Source: Myxococcales bacterium
GTDB lineage: Bacteria > Myxococcota_A > Polyangia > Fen-1088
Length of the DNA stretch: 64,000 nt
Assembly: GCA_003142855.1 (NCBI GenBank)
Contig: PLNW01000083.1
Span: 124,001 to 188,000 of the forward strand
Direction: 5' to 3'
The translations under genes and the position numbers were made by a program. The notes beneath the pieces were generated by a model. That model saw only the letters and a program-made list of their open reading frames with translations, ran no database searches and was not told the DNA's origin. Below, one piece after another: positions 1 through 7,713 of the stretch. How positions within the stretch are numbered: position 1 is the stretch's first letter; each line of letters opens with the position of its first letter.

Positions 1-1251
1 CACCAGGCCCATACCATCATCATCGGCAATGACAGCCACCTCGGCTTCTACGCCGAAGCCAAGACGCGGGTTCTCACTCTGATCAAAGACTTGCGCCAGC
101 GCGCGGAGCGGCCCGACGAACGCGCCTGGGTCGACGACATCGAGGCAGGCGCGGCCGAGCTGGACAGCATCTTCAGCCGCGACATTGTGCCGGCCGTCCT
201 GTCCGGCCGGACTGCGGACGCGCATCTCGAGCATGCGCGCGCCTTGGCCGTGGTCGGTCGCATCCAGGAGCGAACCGATCTTCTGGCCAAGCGCTTTGAA
301 GACGCCATCGGGGAGCTGCAGTCATTCGCGCAGGCGACACGTGATCGGACGGTGAGATGGAGCGTTTTCTTTCTGGTGCTGGCGCCTGTGCTGGCCGGAG
401 GCGTGGCCGTCTATCTGGGCCGCAAGGTGGCGCGGCCGGTGGCGCTTCTGCATGCGGGCGCGGAACGCCTGGCCGCCGGTGATCTCGACACGCGCATTGC
501 CGTGGGCGGCGACGACGAGTTCGGCGACCTGGCCCGCCAGTTCAACACCATGGTCGCGTCGCTCAAGGAACAACAGCACCGCCTCTTGCAGAGCGAACGT
601 CTGGCTGGCGTCGGGCGCCTGGCCGCTGGCGTGGCACACGAAATCAACAACCCGCTGGGCGTGATCCTGGGATACACGCGCCTGCTGCGCAAGAAGGCGG
701 TCGGCCCGCTGGCCGACGATTTGGCAGTCGTCGAGGAAGAAGTTCTGCGCTGTCAGGAGATCGTGGAAGGACTCCTCGATTTCTCGCGGCCGGTCCAGGT
801 CGGCACGCAGCCGGTGGACCTGCGCGCGCTGTGCGACGACGTCGTGGCACGACTGGCGGAAGCGTCGCCCGCACCCGGCGTGGCTGTGACGGTGGCCGGG
901 CAGGGTGAGACGAGGGGTACGGCCTCCAAGCTGCGCCAGGTGTTGCTCAACCTCATCAAGAACGCAATCGAGGCGGCGGTCCCGGCTGGAAGCGTAGACA
1001 TCCAGGTCGACGAAACCCACGAGTGCTCGCGGGTGACGGTGCGGGATTCGGGGCCAGGCCTGGACGCCGAGGCGCGCGAGCGTTTGTTTGAACCCTTCTT
1101 TACCAACAAGCCGCGGGGAACCGGTCTGGGTTTGGCGGTGTCGCAAGCCATCGCGCACGCCCACGGTGGCGAAATCGTCGCGGATGCACCCGGACCGGGC
1201 GGGGCTTGTTTCGTGCTGTGCCTGCCGCGCTCCCGAGGAGGAACGACATGA
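1..1251 (+). CDS. Sensor histidine kinase, 5' end cut by window
   Basis: Membrane sensor kinase of a two-component system. The frame is open from the first base, so the true start lies upstream; 416 residues are visible. In order: the remains of an extracytoplasmic helical sensor region, a membrane segment near residues 119-138, a HAMP linker, a HisKA domain with the phospho-acceptor His in GVAHEINNPLG (visible residue 213), and an ATPase domain with N box LLNLIKNAIEAA, G1 DSGPGL and G2 GTGLGLAVS. Its stop overlaps the start of the next gene (ATGA), so the two are translationally coupled and the NtrC-type regulator is its likely partner. The signal sensed is unknown. Confidence 0.93.
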   Translation, partial: HQAHTIIIGNDSHLGFYAEAKTRVLTLIKDLRQRAERPDERAWVDDIEAGAAELDSIFSRDIVPAVLSGRTADAHLEHARALAVVGRIQERTDLLAKRFEDAIGELQSFAQATRDRTVRWSVFFLVLAPVLAGGVAVYLGRKVARPVALLHAGAERLAAGDLDTRIAVGGDDEFGDLARQFNTMVASLKEQQHRLLQSERLAGVGRLAAGVAHEINNPLGVILGYTRLLRKKAVGPLADDLAVVEEEVLRCQEIVEGLLDFSRPVQVGTQPVDLRALCDDVVARLAEASPAPGVAVTVAGQGETRGTASKLRQVLLNLIKNAIEAAVPAGSVDIQVDETHECSRVTVRDSGPGLDAEARERLFEPFFTNKPRGTGLGLAVSQAIAHAHGGEIVADAPGPGGACFVLCLPRSRGGTT

Positions 1252-2642
1252 ATCGACCTGCCGTGCTGGTGGTGGACGACAAGGAGAATATGCTCAAGCT
1301 GTTCGCCAAGATCTTGGGCGAGGAACACAACCTCACCACGGCCAGCGACGGCGCCAAGGCGTTGGCGCTGATCGCAGAACACGAGTTCGACGTGGTGGTG
1401 ACCGATCTCAAGATGCCGGGGGCCAGTGGATTCACCGTGTTGGAATCGGTCAAGGCGCGCTGGCCCGAGACGGAGGTGGTCCTGATGACCGCCTATGGCT
1501 CGGTTTCCGACGCGGTTGAGGCCATGAAACAGGGCGCGTACGACTACATCCAGAAGCCCTTCGACCCTGACTCTGCCGCCCTGATGGTGGCGCGCGCCTT
1601 GGAGCGCCGGCGCCTGCGCGCTCAGACCGTGAGCCTGCGCAAGGAGTTGGAGGGGGTGAACTCGTTCCACAACATGATCGGCAAGAGCCCGCCCATGCGC
1701 GAGGTGTACGGCCTGCTGCAACGGGCGGCGGGGCTTGATATGACCGTGCTGCTCACCGGGGAGACCGGCACCGGCAAGGAGCTGGCGGCGCGCGCGGTGC
1801 ACTACCACAGCGAGCGCAAACACAATCGCTTCGTGCCGGTGAACTGCGGCGCGCTGCCGGGCGAGTTGGTGGAAAGTGAACTCTTCGGCCATGCCAAAGG
1901 GGCCTTCACCGGCGCGGCGGCCAGCAAGCCGGGCCTCTTCGAGGAAGCCAACCGGGGCACCCTGTTCCTCGACGAAGTGGGGGAGCTACCCTTGCCCGTG
2001 CAGGTGAAGCTCAATCGGGCTCTCGAGGAGAAGGAGATTCGTCGGGTGGGTGAGAACACGCCGTTCTCAGTCGACGTGCGCATCATCGCCGCCACCCATC
2101 GGGATCTCAAGGCCGAGGTTCAGGCCGGGCGGTTCCGTGAAGACCTCTTCTATCGCCTGCACGTCTTTCCCATCCGCATGCCGGCCTTGCGCGAACGACG
2201 CGAGGACATTCCGGCGTTGGCGGCCCACTTCCTGGCCCAGCACGCGCGCACATCGAAGCGCGACATCGTGGGGATCGGAAATGCGGCCATGCGGGCGCTG
2301 GCGGCCTACAACTGGCCGGGCAACGTGCGCGAGTTGCAGAATGCCATCGAGCGCGCGGTGGCCATTGCCGCCGGCAAGGAGCTTGACATCCGTGATCTGC
2401 CCGCGGAGCTGCGCGGGGCGCAGGTGGGCGCGCTTCCCGCCGAGGTGCTGGTCAAGATGCCTTACCGCGAGGCCATGGAGACCGCGCGCGACCGCATCTC
2501 GCGCGAGTATTTGGCGGTGCTCATGCGCGAGTTCGAAGGCAACGTGACCCGCGCTGCTGAACGGGCCGGCATCGAGCGCGAGAGCCTGCACCGACTGCTC
2601 AAACGCTATGGCGTGCGATCCGAGGACTTCAAACGCGGGTAG
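1248..2642 (+). CDS. Sigma-54-dependent response regulator, NtrC family
   Basis: DNA-binding activator of sigma-54 promoters, 464 residues. The receiver domain is at 1-120 with the acidic pocket near D10-D11, phospho-acceptor D53 and conserved K103. The AAA+ domain has Walker A GETGTGKE near 171-178 and the sigma-54 contact loop GAFTGA at 218-223. A Fis-type helix-turn-helix ends the protein (EGNVTRAAERAGIERESL region). The ATG overlaps the kinase stop and follows a GAGGAGG ribosome site, which fixes the start. No clear -24/-12 promoter was found by eye nearby, so its targets are unknown. Confidence 0.95.
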   Translation: MNRPAVLVVDDKENMLKLFAKILGEEHNLTTASDGAKALALIAEHEFDVVVTDLKMPGASGFTVLESVKARWPETEVVLMTAYGSVSDAVEAMKQGAYDYIQKPFDPDSAALMVARALERRRLRAQTVSLRKELEGVNSFHNMIGKSPPMREVYGLLQRAAGLDMTVLLTGETGTGKELAARAVHYHSERKHNRFVPVNCGALPGELVESELFGHAKGAFTGAAASKPGLFEEANRGTLFLDEVGELPLPVQVKLNRALEEKEIRRVGENTPFSVDVRIIAATHRDLKAEVQAGRFREDLFYRLHVFPIRMPALRERREDIPALAAHFLAQHARTSKRDIVGIGNAAMRALAAYNWPGNVRELQNAIERAVAIAAGKELDIRDLPAELRGAQVGALPAEVLVKMPYREAMETARDRISREYLAVLMREFEGNVTRAAERAGIERESLHRLLKRYGVRSEDFKRG

Positions 2643-4020: not shown

Positions 4021-5409
4021 ATGAAACACAGTTTTGCCCTAGCGGTGGCCATGGCCGTTTTGATGGTGGGATGTACCAAGGCGCGTCCGTTGGAGGAGGC
4101 GGCCTCGGTGCACACGGCCGGGGTTCTGGATCCAAACCAACCCGATTTTCACGGCACGCTTCTGCTCAAGTCCAAGTTCGATTTCGGCCTCTGCCAGCAA
4201 TGCCACGGCCAGGACTTTTCGGGTGGGACGGCCCATGTGTCCTGCTTGCTTTGTCACAAGGGCTCGGGCGGCATTGCGCCGGGTGTGATGAATTCTGACG
4301 GCACCCCGGCCTGCGCAGCCTGCCACGGCTCCACGCCAGCGTCGGGCAAACATAAGATCCACGTTGATGGTGGCCTGCTGGTCACGAAGTTCGTCTGTAC
4401 GACCTGCCATCCGGATCACCAGAGCGCTCAGGATCACGCCTTCGCCTCCGACGGTTCGCTGCGCACTGGTCCTGCTCAGGTTTCGCTGACGGGCCTGGCC
4501 GCGCAAACGCCTGCCGATGGCACGCGGGCGGGACCGCCGGCCTGGGATCCGAGCGGTCGAACCTGCAGCAACGTCTACTGCCACGGGGCCACCTTCGCCG
4601 ATTCGGCGGCCGTGACCAACAGCCCGAGTTGGGATGCCGCGCCTCGACCCGCGACCCAAACCTGCACCTTCTGCCACGGGCTTCCACCCAACGGCGCAGG
4701 CGGGACCCTTTGCTCGACCTGCCATCACAACGTCGTCGATGAGCAGACCAAGTTGATCAGCACGACGACCTTGCACCTCAACGGCACGGTCGATTTCGCA
4801 GACCCGAACACGCCCTGCAATACCTGCCACGGCTCAGCCAGCTCAGCGGCACCGCCCCCCGATCTGCAGGGGAATTCCGCGACCTCGGCCGTGGGTGTGG
4901 GCCAGCACCAGCGGCATGTGACGGCGCCTGTGCTGGGCATTCGCGGCCCCATCCAGTGCTCGGAGTGCCACCAGGTTCCTGCCAACGTGCTCAGCCCGGG
5001 TCATTTCGGCGCGGGTCACGCGCCCGGCGCGCCCGTCGGTGCGGCGGTTTTCCCCAATGTGACGGGCTCAGGAACTCTGGCGCGGGCCCAGAGCGCGTCG
5101 CCAACGTGGAATCCCGCTTCGACGACTTGCTCGGGTGCGTACTGTCACGGCGGTGGCGAGCCACTCAATACGGACAAGACCGCGGGCATCCAGCAAACGC
5201 CCAACTGGGTCTCACCCGACAGCGGCGCGTGCGGGACCGCCTGTCACGGCATCCCACCGCAGTTCTCGGGACACCCGACCGGGGTGACGCGAACTGGGTG
5301 CGTGGCCTGCCACGCGAAGACCATCGACGCTTCCGGGAACATCGTCTTCACGGGTGCGGCCGGAGCTCAGAGCACGACCCACATGAACGGAGCCTTCGAT
5401 GGCGACTAA
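4021..5409 (+). CDS. Outer-membrane multihaem c-type cytochrome lipoprotein (12 haem motifs)
   Basis: Predicted electron-carrying lipoprotein of 462 residues. The start at 4021 is chosen because it gives a lipoprotein signal peptide (lipobox LMVGC); upstream in-frame codons add no signal. Twelve haem motifs are visible: nine CXXCH, two CX4CH (CSNVYCH and CSGAYCH) and one CX3CH (CGTACH). Paired CX4CH...CXXCH units ending in H[LM]NG match the repeated domain described in Geobacter cytochromes (TIGR01904-like). Its end overlaps the downstream barrel gene. By analogy with OmcB/MtrC-type proteins it would be the surface-exposed member of a porin–cytochrome conduit; topology is inferred. Confidence 0.88.
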   Translation: MKHSFALAVAMAVLMVGCTKARPLEEAASVHTAGVLDPNQPDFHGTLLLKSKFDFGLCQQCHGQDFSGGTAHVSCLLCHKGSGGIAPGVMNSDGTPACAACHGSTPASGKHKIHVDGGLLVTKFVCTTCHPDHQSAQDHAFASDGSLRTGPAQVSLTGLAAQTPADGTRAGPPAWDPSGRTCSNVYCHGATFADSAAVTNSPSWDAAPRPATQTCTFCHGLPPNGAGGTLCSTCHHNVVDEQTKLISTTTLHLNGTVDFADPNTPCNTCHGSASSAAPPPDLQGNSATSAVGVGQHQRHVTAPVLGIRGPIQCSECHQVPANVLSPGHFGAGHAPGAPVGAAVFPNVTGSGTLARAQSASPTWNPASTTCSGAYCHGGGEPLNTDKTAGIQQTPNWVSPDSGACGTACHGIPPQFSGHPTGVTRTGCVACHAKTIDASGNIVFTGAAGAQSTTHMNGAFDGD

Positions 5410-6661
5410 AACGGTGGTCGTTTGTTTGGCGGCGCTGGTTGGGGCCAGCGGGTGGGCCCGCGCTGAAACGGTCACGGCCAGCTCGACCACCATCGTTTCG
5501 GGCCAGCGCGATCCGCGCGATGGCACCGTGCACACGGTGGTGCCTTTCCTCGAGTTGGTTTCCCTGCGGGCCTCGGACATCAACAACGCCCTCTTCGACG
5601 ACACCCAGATCGTGGTTTCGGGCTGGGGCGAGGCGGTAGCGGGCGATCCGCGCGATGGAAAGAGCGTCTTGGGCGACGTGGACGTGGCCTACCTGCAGGG
5701 CTCGACCTGGAACCGGCGCGTGACCTTGCGCGCGGGCCGGCAGTTTGTGTTTCCGGGAACCGCGGGCAACGTGCAGCTTGACGGCCTTGCCCCCACGCTG
5801 CGGGTGGGGGCGGGATTCGGCTTGTCAGGATTCGTCGGTGTTCCGGTGACCCCACGCTTCGGCTACAGCCGGGGCGAGTTCACCAGCGGGGCCCGAGTGT
5901 TCTGGAGTCGTTCTTATGAATCAGAAGTGGGCGTTTCGGTCTTGGAAATCCTGGGGGCGGGACGGCATGTGTTCCGTCGGGATGCCGGGGTCGATGCCCG
6001 CTATCGAATCTTGGATTCGCTCGCCCTCAGCGGACTGGTGCGGTGGAGCCTCGCCGAGACCCGCATGGCTGAGGCCGATGCGGCGGCCAACTGGCAGCCC
6101 TGTCGCTACCTGGACGTGACCGCGGACTACCGGCGTACGGCCCCGGACTTGTTCTTGCCGCGATACTCGATCTTCGCGGTTTTTGCTCAGGAGACGCGCG
6201 ACGAATTCGGCGGTTATTTTTCTGTGCGGCCGTGGCTTCGCCGCCTGGACTTGCAAGGCGATTTTCACCAGGTGCACGATGCCAGTGGGTGGGGCTGGAA
6301 CACGGGAGGCAAGGCCACCCTGCGTCTTGGCAGCGGCGGGGGAACGCGGCTCGGCGTCGAAAGCCGGCGGCTAAAGATCCCGGGTGGTGGCTATCTCATG
6401 GGCCGCGCCTTTGCCTGGCAAACCATCACCACGAAGATTCGCGTGGTGGCCGATTTCGATGTCTATGACCTCGACCAGCGTCTGAACGGCCAAGATCGTT
6501 CGTTCTTTGCATCGGGCAGTCTGGTGTATGACTTGGCGCCGGCCTGGCGCGCGGTGCTCACCGGAATGGACAACGTGACCCCCTATGCGACACATCAGAT
6601 CGAGGGACTGCTCAAGATTGTCTATGACGGAGGCCATGTGCTGAGAGAGGTCACGCCGTGA
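5399..6661 (+). CDS. Outer-membrane beta-barrel, porin of a cytochrome conduit
   Basis: 420 residues. An N-terminal signal peptide ends near the ARA of GASGWARA. Alternating hydrophobic/polar strands rich in aromatic and Gly residues continue to the end, typical of a large barrel. There are no haem motifs. The gene overlaps the upstream cytochrome by 11 bases and the downstream cytochrome by 4 (GTGA). A barrel encoded between two multihaem cytochromes is the hallmark of OmbB- or MtrB-type complexes, where the barrel sheathes the electron path across the outer membrane. Sequence homology to those families could not be tested, so the role rests on fold and context. Confidence 0.8.
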   Translation: MATKTVVVCLAALVGASGWARAETVTASSTTIVSGQRDPRDGTVHTVVPFLELVSLRASDINNALFDDTQIVVSGWGEAVAGDPRDGKSVLGDVDVAYLQGSTWNRRVTLRAGRQFVFPGTAGNVQLDGLAPTLRVGAGFGLSGFVGVPVTPRFGYSRGEFTSGARVFWSRSYESEVGVSVLEILGAGRHVFRRDAGVDARYRILDSLALSGLVRWSLAETRMAEADAAANWQPCRYLDVTADYRRTAPDLFLPRYSIFAVFAQETRDEFGGYFSVRPWLRRLDLQGDFHQVHDASGWGWNTGGKATLRLGSGGGTRLGVESRRLKIPGGGYLMGRAFAWQTITTKIRVVADFDVYDLDQRLNGQDRSFFASGSLVYDLAPAWRAVLTGMDNVTPYATHQIEGLLKIVYDGGHVLREVTP

Positions 6662-7713
6662 GTGGTTCTGGAAAATGGATCGCGCTGGCAGCACTGGGCA
6701 TCGCGGCCTGCGCGACCATGCTGGGGACCAGGCGGGCCAAGCAGCCAGGCGAGGAGATTCGCCAGTCGCACGCGGCCCACAAGGATCTTCCCTGTGTGAT
6801 GTGCCACGAGGACGTGCCCGAGGCCAAGACGGTCACCGACCGCTTGCGACCGCCGGAGGCCAAGTGTCTGGAGTGTCACGCCGACAAGAAAGATCAGAAA
6901 GAGTGCGGCTACTGCCACACCGATCCGGCCCATCCCGGACCCTATCCGGCCGAGGTCCACACCATCATCATTTCGCACCAAACCCACCTCAAGCTGGTCA
7001 ACGACGATTGTAGCGCGTGCCACGTGAAGCTTTCGGAGTACGCGCGGCCCGGGCCCACACCGCCCACCATGAAGTCTTGCACCAAGTGCCACGAGCACAG
7101 GGTCGACTTCGACGAGGGCCGCTGTGGCACGTGCCACACCGATCTCAAGCGATTCCCGCTCAAGCCAGTGGCCGAGTTCTCACACGCCGGCGATTTCATC
7201 CGGCAGCACGCCAGCGTGGCACACGCGACCGCCGATGCATGCACGCAGTGCCACGACCAGACGTTCTGTGCCGATTGCCACGCTCAGACCGCCCCCATGC
7301 GCGTGGAACTCAAGTTCAGCGAGAACGTGACCAGCGACTTCATCCACCGCGGCGACTACCTGACCCGCCATAGCATCGAAGCGCGCTCCGATCCGGTTCT
7401 GTGCCAGCGCTGTCACGGCACGAGCTTCTGCTCGGCCTGCCACGATCAGGAGAACGTCGGGCCCGGCGGCAGCAACCCGCGCCGTCCGCACCCGCCGGGC
7501 TGGGCCTTTGCTGGCCCCACGTCCCACGGGGTGGCCGCTCGGCGCGACATCGTGAGCTGTGCCTCGTGCCACGATCAGGGGCTGAACTCAAACTGCGTCG
7601 GGTGTCACCGCGTGGGTGGCGTCGGCGGCAATCCGCATCCGATGCAGTGGCAGCAGAAGCACAGCCTGCCCGAAGCGTACGGCACGGCGATGTGCCAGTA
7701 CTGCCACAAGTAG
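6658..7713 (+). CDS. Periplasmic multihaem c-type cytochrome (13 haem motifs)
   Basis: 351 residues with a signal sequence ending in a possible lipobox (GIAAC) and 13 CXXCH motifs, from CVMCH to CQYCH at the extreme C-terminus. This gives about one haem per 26 residues, a wire-like density. Extra histidines (for example in HAAH, HQTH and HEH) could be distal ligands. The GTG start overlaps the barrel stop. In a conduit it would take electrons from periplasmic carriers and pass them through the barrel to the surface cytochrome (OmaB/MtrA role). The known OmaB group has fewer haems, so this is an analogue rather than a proven orthologue. Confidence 0.87.
   Translation: MSGSGKWIALAALGIAACATMLGTRRAKQPGEEIRQSHAAHKDLPCVMCHEDVPEAKTVTDRLRPPEAKCLECHADKKDQKECGYCHTDPAHPGPYPAEVHTIIISHQTHLKLVNDDCSACHVKLSEYARPGPTPPTMKSCTKCHEHRVDFDEGRCGTCHTDLKRFPLKPVAEFSHAGDFIRQHASVAHATADACTQCHDQTFCADCHAQTAPMRVELKFSENVTSDFIHRGDYLTRHSIEARSDPVLCQRCHGTSFCSACHDQENVGPGGSNPRRPHPPGWAFAGPTSHGVAARRDIVSCASCHDQGLNSNCVGCHRVGGVGGNPHPMQWQQKHSLPEAYGTAMCQYCHK

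Follow-up and report, generated by a model that had tools for sequence, protein, structure and literature searches.

The stretch of DNA analyzed here (the window) is 64 kb long and corresponds to positions 124001–188000 of contig C3 in a 6.0-Mb metagenome-assembled genome (MAG, denoted G000) from an uncultured soil bacterium of the Myxococcales (phylum Myxococcota). It contains three genes, which we call A, B and C and which very probably encode an electron conduit across the outer membrane. All three lie on the plus strand in one operon: gene A (4021–5409) encodes a multihaem lipoprotein of the CxxxxCH/CxxCH type, gene B (5399–6661) a predicted outer-membrane β-barrel, and gene C (6658–7713) a 13-haem cytochrome. 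Genes A and B overlap by 11 bases and genes B and C by 4 bases. An earlier note on this DNA, made from the sequence, had described three overlapping genes at these positions, the first a 12-haem lipoprotein and the last a 13-haem cytochrome; the boundaries are exactly as described and the motif counts are correct. No open frame in the window besides genes A and C contains at least two CxxCH motifs.

The product of gene A is 462 residues long, starting from the ATG at 4021, and contains 12 haem motifs: nine CxxCH, two CX4CH and one CX3CH. It matches TIGR01904, the CxxxxCH/CxxCH cytochrome domain, with a score of 72.7 bits against a cut-off of 27, and also matches PF14522 and PF09698. Its signal peptide ends at the lipobox cysteine C18 (LMVG-C, 4072–4074), which was read directly from the sequence and is a cysteine in all aligned relatives; gene A is a candidate for the outer-membrane lipoprotein of a conduit. 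The unusual CX3CH motif (CGTACH, 5230–5247) is kept throughout the genus and in locus L035, whereas more distant relatives have CxxCH at that site. An N-terminal region of approximately 90 residues, carrying a 13th haem motif, is present in the same-genus loci L031–L034 and also in L035–L037, L040 and L053, but is absent from gene A of the window and from its closest relative, L002. On this sequence comparison, the 12 haems of gene A are a reduced form.

Gene B encodes 420 residues, with a signal peptide at about residues 1–20 and no haem motifs. It has no sequence match in Pfam, NCBIfam or the PDB, and a search of the PDB with the barrel profile found no relative, the best match being a designed protein with an expect value (E) of 0.55. 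AlphaFold2, using 59 aligned sequences, predicts a 22-strand barrel with a mean predicted local distance difference test score (pLDDT) of 90.3 and a predicted template modelling score (pTM) of 0.81, which agrees with the earlier identification of the middle protein as a β-barrel. Foldseek against the PDB returned only β-barrels, with the PapC/FimD ushers best; MtrB is absent among the 50 matches listed. PapC/FimD ushers have 24 strands. Residues of gene B point alternately to two faces, of which one is more hydrophobic (61% AVLIFMWY) and the other has 28% of its residues charged. In the model the loops are mostly short on both faces, and there are no long extracellular loops and no plug domain. 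Strands 13 and 14 are joined by the longest of the inter-strand loops, which contains two short helices and holds the most conserved motif of the barrel (RTAPDLFLPRYSIFAVFAQETRDEFGG; 6131–6211, plus strand), as seen in two alignments; the conserved motif of the family in this loop is TAPDLFLPxxSIFxVF. Assuming the usual shear, the calculated backbone radius is about 20 Å for 22 strands, compared with about 23.5 Å for 26 strands. The pore is therefore large enough to hold a haem wire; the earlier note had named a far too small pore, or a protein that was not a barrel, as findings that would count against a conduit. Porin–cytochrome conduits have been defined by an outer-membrane barrel, a multihaem wire, an outer-membrane lipoprotein with a redox cofactor, and electron transfer across the membrane (PMC6148476), and as modelled, gene B is the integral outer-membrane β-barrel of that definition.

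Gene C encodes 351 residues from the GTG at 6658, with 13 CxxCH motifs. It is compact, with 27 residues per haem as against 38.5 in gene A, and strongly conserved: 12 of its 13 haem motifs are invariant in an alignment of 57 members, while some relatives lack the third motif and so have 12. When the protein sequences of the two cytochromes were each shuffled 2000 times, gene C gave a mean of 0.16 CxxCH (maximum 2) and gene A a mean of 0.09 (maximum 3), so that the real counts are far beyond chance. Gene C is also predicted to be a lipoprotein, with the lipobox cysteine C18 (GIAA-C, 6709–6711) at the end of its signal peptide, at least 90% conserved over the 57 sequences. The earlier note had called gene C periplasmic. 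A role opposite the surface module is consistent with our results, but plain “periplasmic” is too simple because the protein is lipid-anchored. It may be tethered to the outer membrane on the inner leaflet and extend into the barrel. We found no description in the literature of a wire predicted to be a lipoprotein.

The occurrence of these genes in other genomes was analyzed by searching GTDB, taking one genome per species, with an alignment of the 13-haem cytochrome. The best 80 of the 160 matched loci were examined, and these are nearly all from Myxococcota. Counted from the cytochrome side, with this alignment as the query, the gene immediately before the 12/13-haem cytochrome is that of the barrel in each of the 77 loci that have upstream DNA; the other three end at contig ends. 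By contrast, the third cytochrome may lie upstream or downstream or be absent, and has between 8 and 36 haem motifs. In a heuristic count of neighbors with at least four haem motifs within 900 bases of the barrel and cytochrome pair, a multihaem gene is found upstream, downstream or on both sides in 62 of the 77 loci, and on neither side in 9. Upstream partners have roughly 8 to 36 motifs, while those downstream often have 15. In close relatives gene A is conserved beside the core. Since the pairing of B and C is invariant and the third cytochrome is variable, we conclude that B and C constitute the core of the conduit, and that A is an exchangeable, probably surface, module. This supports the roles assigned earlier (A at the surface, C on the periplasmic side), but makes gene order, which had been thought to set the system apart, a weak distinguishing mark.

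The conduit was found in all seven genomes of the genus; the same-genus relatives of the source MAG are Myxococcales MAGs labelled “fen”. A strong match to the barrel profile occurs in about 40 of 144 sampled relatives, a count from which weak matches (E 1e-10 to 1e-25) were left out as they may be other barrels. More than one barrel per genome is found in several relatives (G087, G034, G043 and G123). We note that the barrel and 13-haem pair also occurs in MAGs assigned to Oligoflexales (Bdellovibrionota; locus L056) and to Candidatus Omnitrophota (L076), which may reflect either horizontal transfer or mis-binning.

The closest described system is found in Anaeromyxobacter species, which have a two-gene pcc (porin–cytochrome) cluster consisting of a porin and a 12–14-haem cytochrome of 338–344 residues, without an outer-membrane cytochrome (Shi et al., 2014, PMC4245776). 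The level of Adeh_3392, the cytochrome of this cluster, is reported to increase when Mn(IV) is being reduced (PMC4245776). Among our loci, A. soli, A. terrae and one Anaeromyxobacter MAG contain such a pair without a neighboring cytochrome. In A. soli and A. terrae the pair is a barrel and a 12-haem cytochrome, with one barrel per genome, which matches the profile with E 5e-132 and 3e-132, respectively. In a tree of the wire protein made by a quick method, the Anaeromyxobacter-containing clade has a support of 99, and joins a larger clade that includes the window with a support of 93. As in the Anaeromyxobacter cluster (Pcc phylogenetic group IV, which includes Adeh_3392), the barrel in the window adjoins a 12–14-haem cytochrome of about 340–350 residues; unlike there, the pair is preceded and overlapped by the gene for a CxxxxCH-type 12-haem lipoprotein, while Anaeromyxobacter has no adjoining third cytochrome. 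On sequence grounds we file the core pair as an Anaeromyxobacter-type pcc, the comparison being made through A. soli, A. terrae and the MAG, and for Adeh_3392 by description. The earlier note had placed the system outside the known types. Because the core groups with the Anaeromyxobacter pairs, it is not wholly outside them, though it is clearly not Mtr.

Other conduits share parts of this arrangement. OmbB-OmaB-OmcB of Geobacter sulfurreducens likewise combines in one operon a multihaem wire, a 12-haem outer-membrane cytochrome and a barrel in the 18–22-strand range predicted for Pcc barrels (PMC4245776), a range that takes in the 22 strands of gene B. Compared by description, its gene order is barrel-oma-omc rather than A-barrel-C, and its wire OmaB has 8 haems, whereas the wire here has 13 and is a predicted lipoprotein. 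The ExtABCD/ExtEFG systems of the same species combine, within a single cluster, cytochrome lipoproteins with a dodecahaem cytochrome and an 18–21-strand barrel (PMC6148476), and ExtA-ExtB-ExtCD has the same cytochrome-barrel-cytochrome order, although by description the periplasmic cytochrome comes first in ExtABCD. In MtrCAB, MtoAB and PioAB, too, a barrel sheathes a haem wire, and Mtr adds a surface cytochrome, but these barrels have 26 strands compared with 22 for gene B. MtrB_PioB (PF11854) matches neither gene B nor anything else in the genome, and gene C is not matched by the MtrA/DmsE decahaem family (TIGR03508); membership of the MtrB/MtrA/MtrC group was rejected on these grounds. PCC3 (He et al., 2017, PMC5566968) resembles the present system in that its barrel is accompanied by multihaem cytochromes both outside the cell and in the periplasm, and the 26–36-haem upstream cytochromes of some relatives are like its extracellular cytochromes; it differs in that its wire has about 21 haems rather than 13, and in that no conserved inner-membrane protein of about 300 residues is found among the neighbors of our conduit. 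The very large cytochromes that replace gene A upstream of the barrel in seven loci (L060, L061, L063, L097, L099, L103 and L108) have open frames of about 1100–1500 residues with 36 haem motifs, in most cases with a lipobox, and resemble the PCC3 extracellular cytochromes.

The earlier note also remarked on the lack of a quinol oxidase nearby. This is an artefact of the edge of the window, and holds only within it: a gene for a NapC/NirT-family cytochrome lies about 9 kb to the left of gene A, on the opposite strand (C3:117682–119184; 501 residues; PF03264, 41.9 bits against a cut-off of 24.1). The protein has five CxxCH motifs and one CX3CH, with hydrophobic segments at its N-terminus. It is adjoined on the minus strand by a gene for a 9-haem lipoprotein (C3:119314–121872) with PKD, collagen-like and MtrC/MtrF-type segments, and the two genes together (L129:13583–17773, equivalent to G000:C3:117682–121872) are located 6–10 kb to the left of the conduit. 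Each of the genus's 7 genomes has the NapC/NirT gene, and none of 9 further relatives does. In all six genomes that have it on the same contig as the barrel (G000, G001, G003, G004, G005 and G006), it is 8.5–12.6 kb from the barrel and on the opposite strand. From Pfam matches, the genes beside it (L129:9032–13640) encode a two-component pair, a HemN-like radical SAM protein and glutamyl-tRNA reductase, an enzyme that takes part in making haem. Elsewhere, the genome encodes a decahaem protein of the OmcA/MtrC family (TIGR03507, 371 bits against 209), a multihaem and cytochrome-b561 protein resembling CbcL, and three QrcA/ActA-like pentahaem proteins that fall below the family cut-off. Taken together with the NapC/NirT protein, these provide candidates for the whole route from quinol to the cell surface. 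A 27-haem cytochrome of 695 residues, near a small CxxxxCH-type cytochrome (L130:8085–13236, on contig C97 of G000), may represent a second cytochrome cluster, without a barrel of the gene B family.

If the conduit works as we propose, electrons would most likely leave the quinol pool via the NapC/NirT-type cytochrome, cross the periplasm by way of other cytochromes, and then pass through B, C and A. In this scheme the predicted 22-strand barrel of gene B would form the sheath, and the lipid-anchored gene C would lie in or under it as the wire, as suggested by the invariant pairing of the two; gene A would be the exchangeable outer contact, spreading charge to an extracellular partner. The electrons may finally reach Fe(III), humic substances or a different acceptor outside the cell, the first two being suggested by the fen origin of the relatives and the physiology of Anaeromyxobacter.

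We consider outward respiration through the conduit the better supported direction, by a modest amount. The sequence itself gives no direction, and electrons could instead enter the respiratory chain from an extracellular donor such as Fe(II), a mineral or a partner cell, as has been proposed for Fe(II) oxidation by the PCC3 and MtoAB porin–cytochrome systems (PMC5566968, PMC10734462). However, the relatives include Anaeromyxobacter, which reduces Mn(IV) and Fe(III), and the genome has an OmcA/MtrC-family protein together with NapC/NirT and CbcL-like candidates for a quinol dehydrogenase, a set typical of outward flow; inward flow is therefore unlikely, though it deserves to be kept in mind.

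Much less probable is an exchange of roles, with the 12-haem A as the wire and the 13-haem C at the surface. Both genes adjoin the barrel gene, and since both proteins have lipoboxes, anchoring does not tell the two roles apart. The comparison across genomes does, in that C is inseparable from the barrel (77 of 77 loci) whereas many relatives have a different cytochrome in place of A, have it elsewhere or lack it, and in Anaeromyxobacter B and C alone are retained; the compactness and strong conservation of C point the same way. Least probable of all is that gene B encodes a common porin for solutes or secretion and lies by chance between two periplasmic cytochrome genes: the best structural matches are indeed ushers and solute porins, and fold alone is no proof of cytochrome binding, but the short loops and lack of a plug in the model, the lipid anchors on both cytochromes and the fact that the barrel is always paired with the same cytochrome, in Myxococcota as in a few other phyla, speak against it, and we rejected an isolated porin because of that pairing.

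Several points weigh against the proposal of an A-B-C conduit. The organism is an uncultured MAG, 94% complete and 8% contaminated, and the conduit is known here from the genome alone. The structural modelling covered single chains, and we infer the sidedness of both cytochromes; it is plausible that their roles lie on both sides of the membrane, where the earlier note had seen a placement of both on one side as a possible objection. The AlphaFold2 model of gene C is of moderate quality (pLDDT 74, pTM 0.48) and was built without haems, and Foldseek found no significant structural match to it; we therefore do not use its fold as evidence. Finally, a lipoprotein wire is unlike MtrA.

To the left of the conduit lie a gene for a HAD hydrolase and those for a histidine kinase (HAMP/HisKA/HATPase) and a sigma-54 response regulator (94–2642, plus strand; Pfam). 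The latter two form a two-component pair that is a possible regulator, linked to the conduit by position only. To its right are genes on the minus strand assigned by reading as MetW/MetX-like. A small protein with an outer-membrane β-barrel domain (PF13505; 12754–13290, minus strand) is not related to the conduit.

The conduit is well supported and conserved, and its core is far more widespread in Myxococcota than has been described. The features most likely to surprise a specialist are this breadth, the lipid anchor of the wire, and surface cytochromes that can be swapped. The evidence is evenly poised on whether this is a myxobacterial conduit class of its own, in which a 22-strand barrel is obligately paired with a lipid-anchored 12/13-haem wire and combined with lineage-specific surface cytochromes (none, or with 8, 12–15, 20 or 26–36 haem motifs); such a class would make extracellular electron transfer widespread, and largely unrecognised, in soil and freshwater Myxococcota well beyond Anaeromyxobacter. 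A fixed core with swappable surface cytochromes constitutes a natural experiment on the purpose of the surface module, and the lipid-anchored wire poses a concrete question of assembly. A working conduit could allow uncultured Myxococcota from peat, permafrost, soil and lakes to use humics or metal oxides for respiration, or to exchange electrons with other cells, and this matters for the cycling of carbon and iron in fens.

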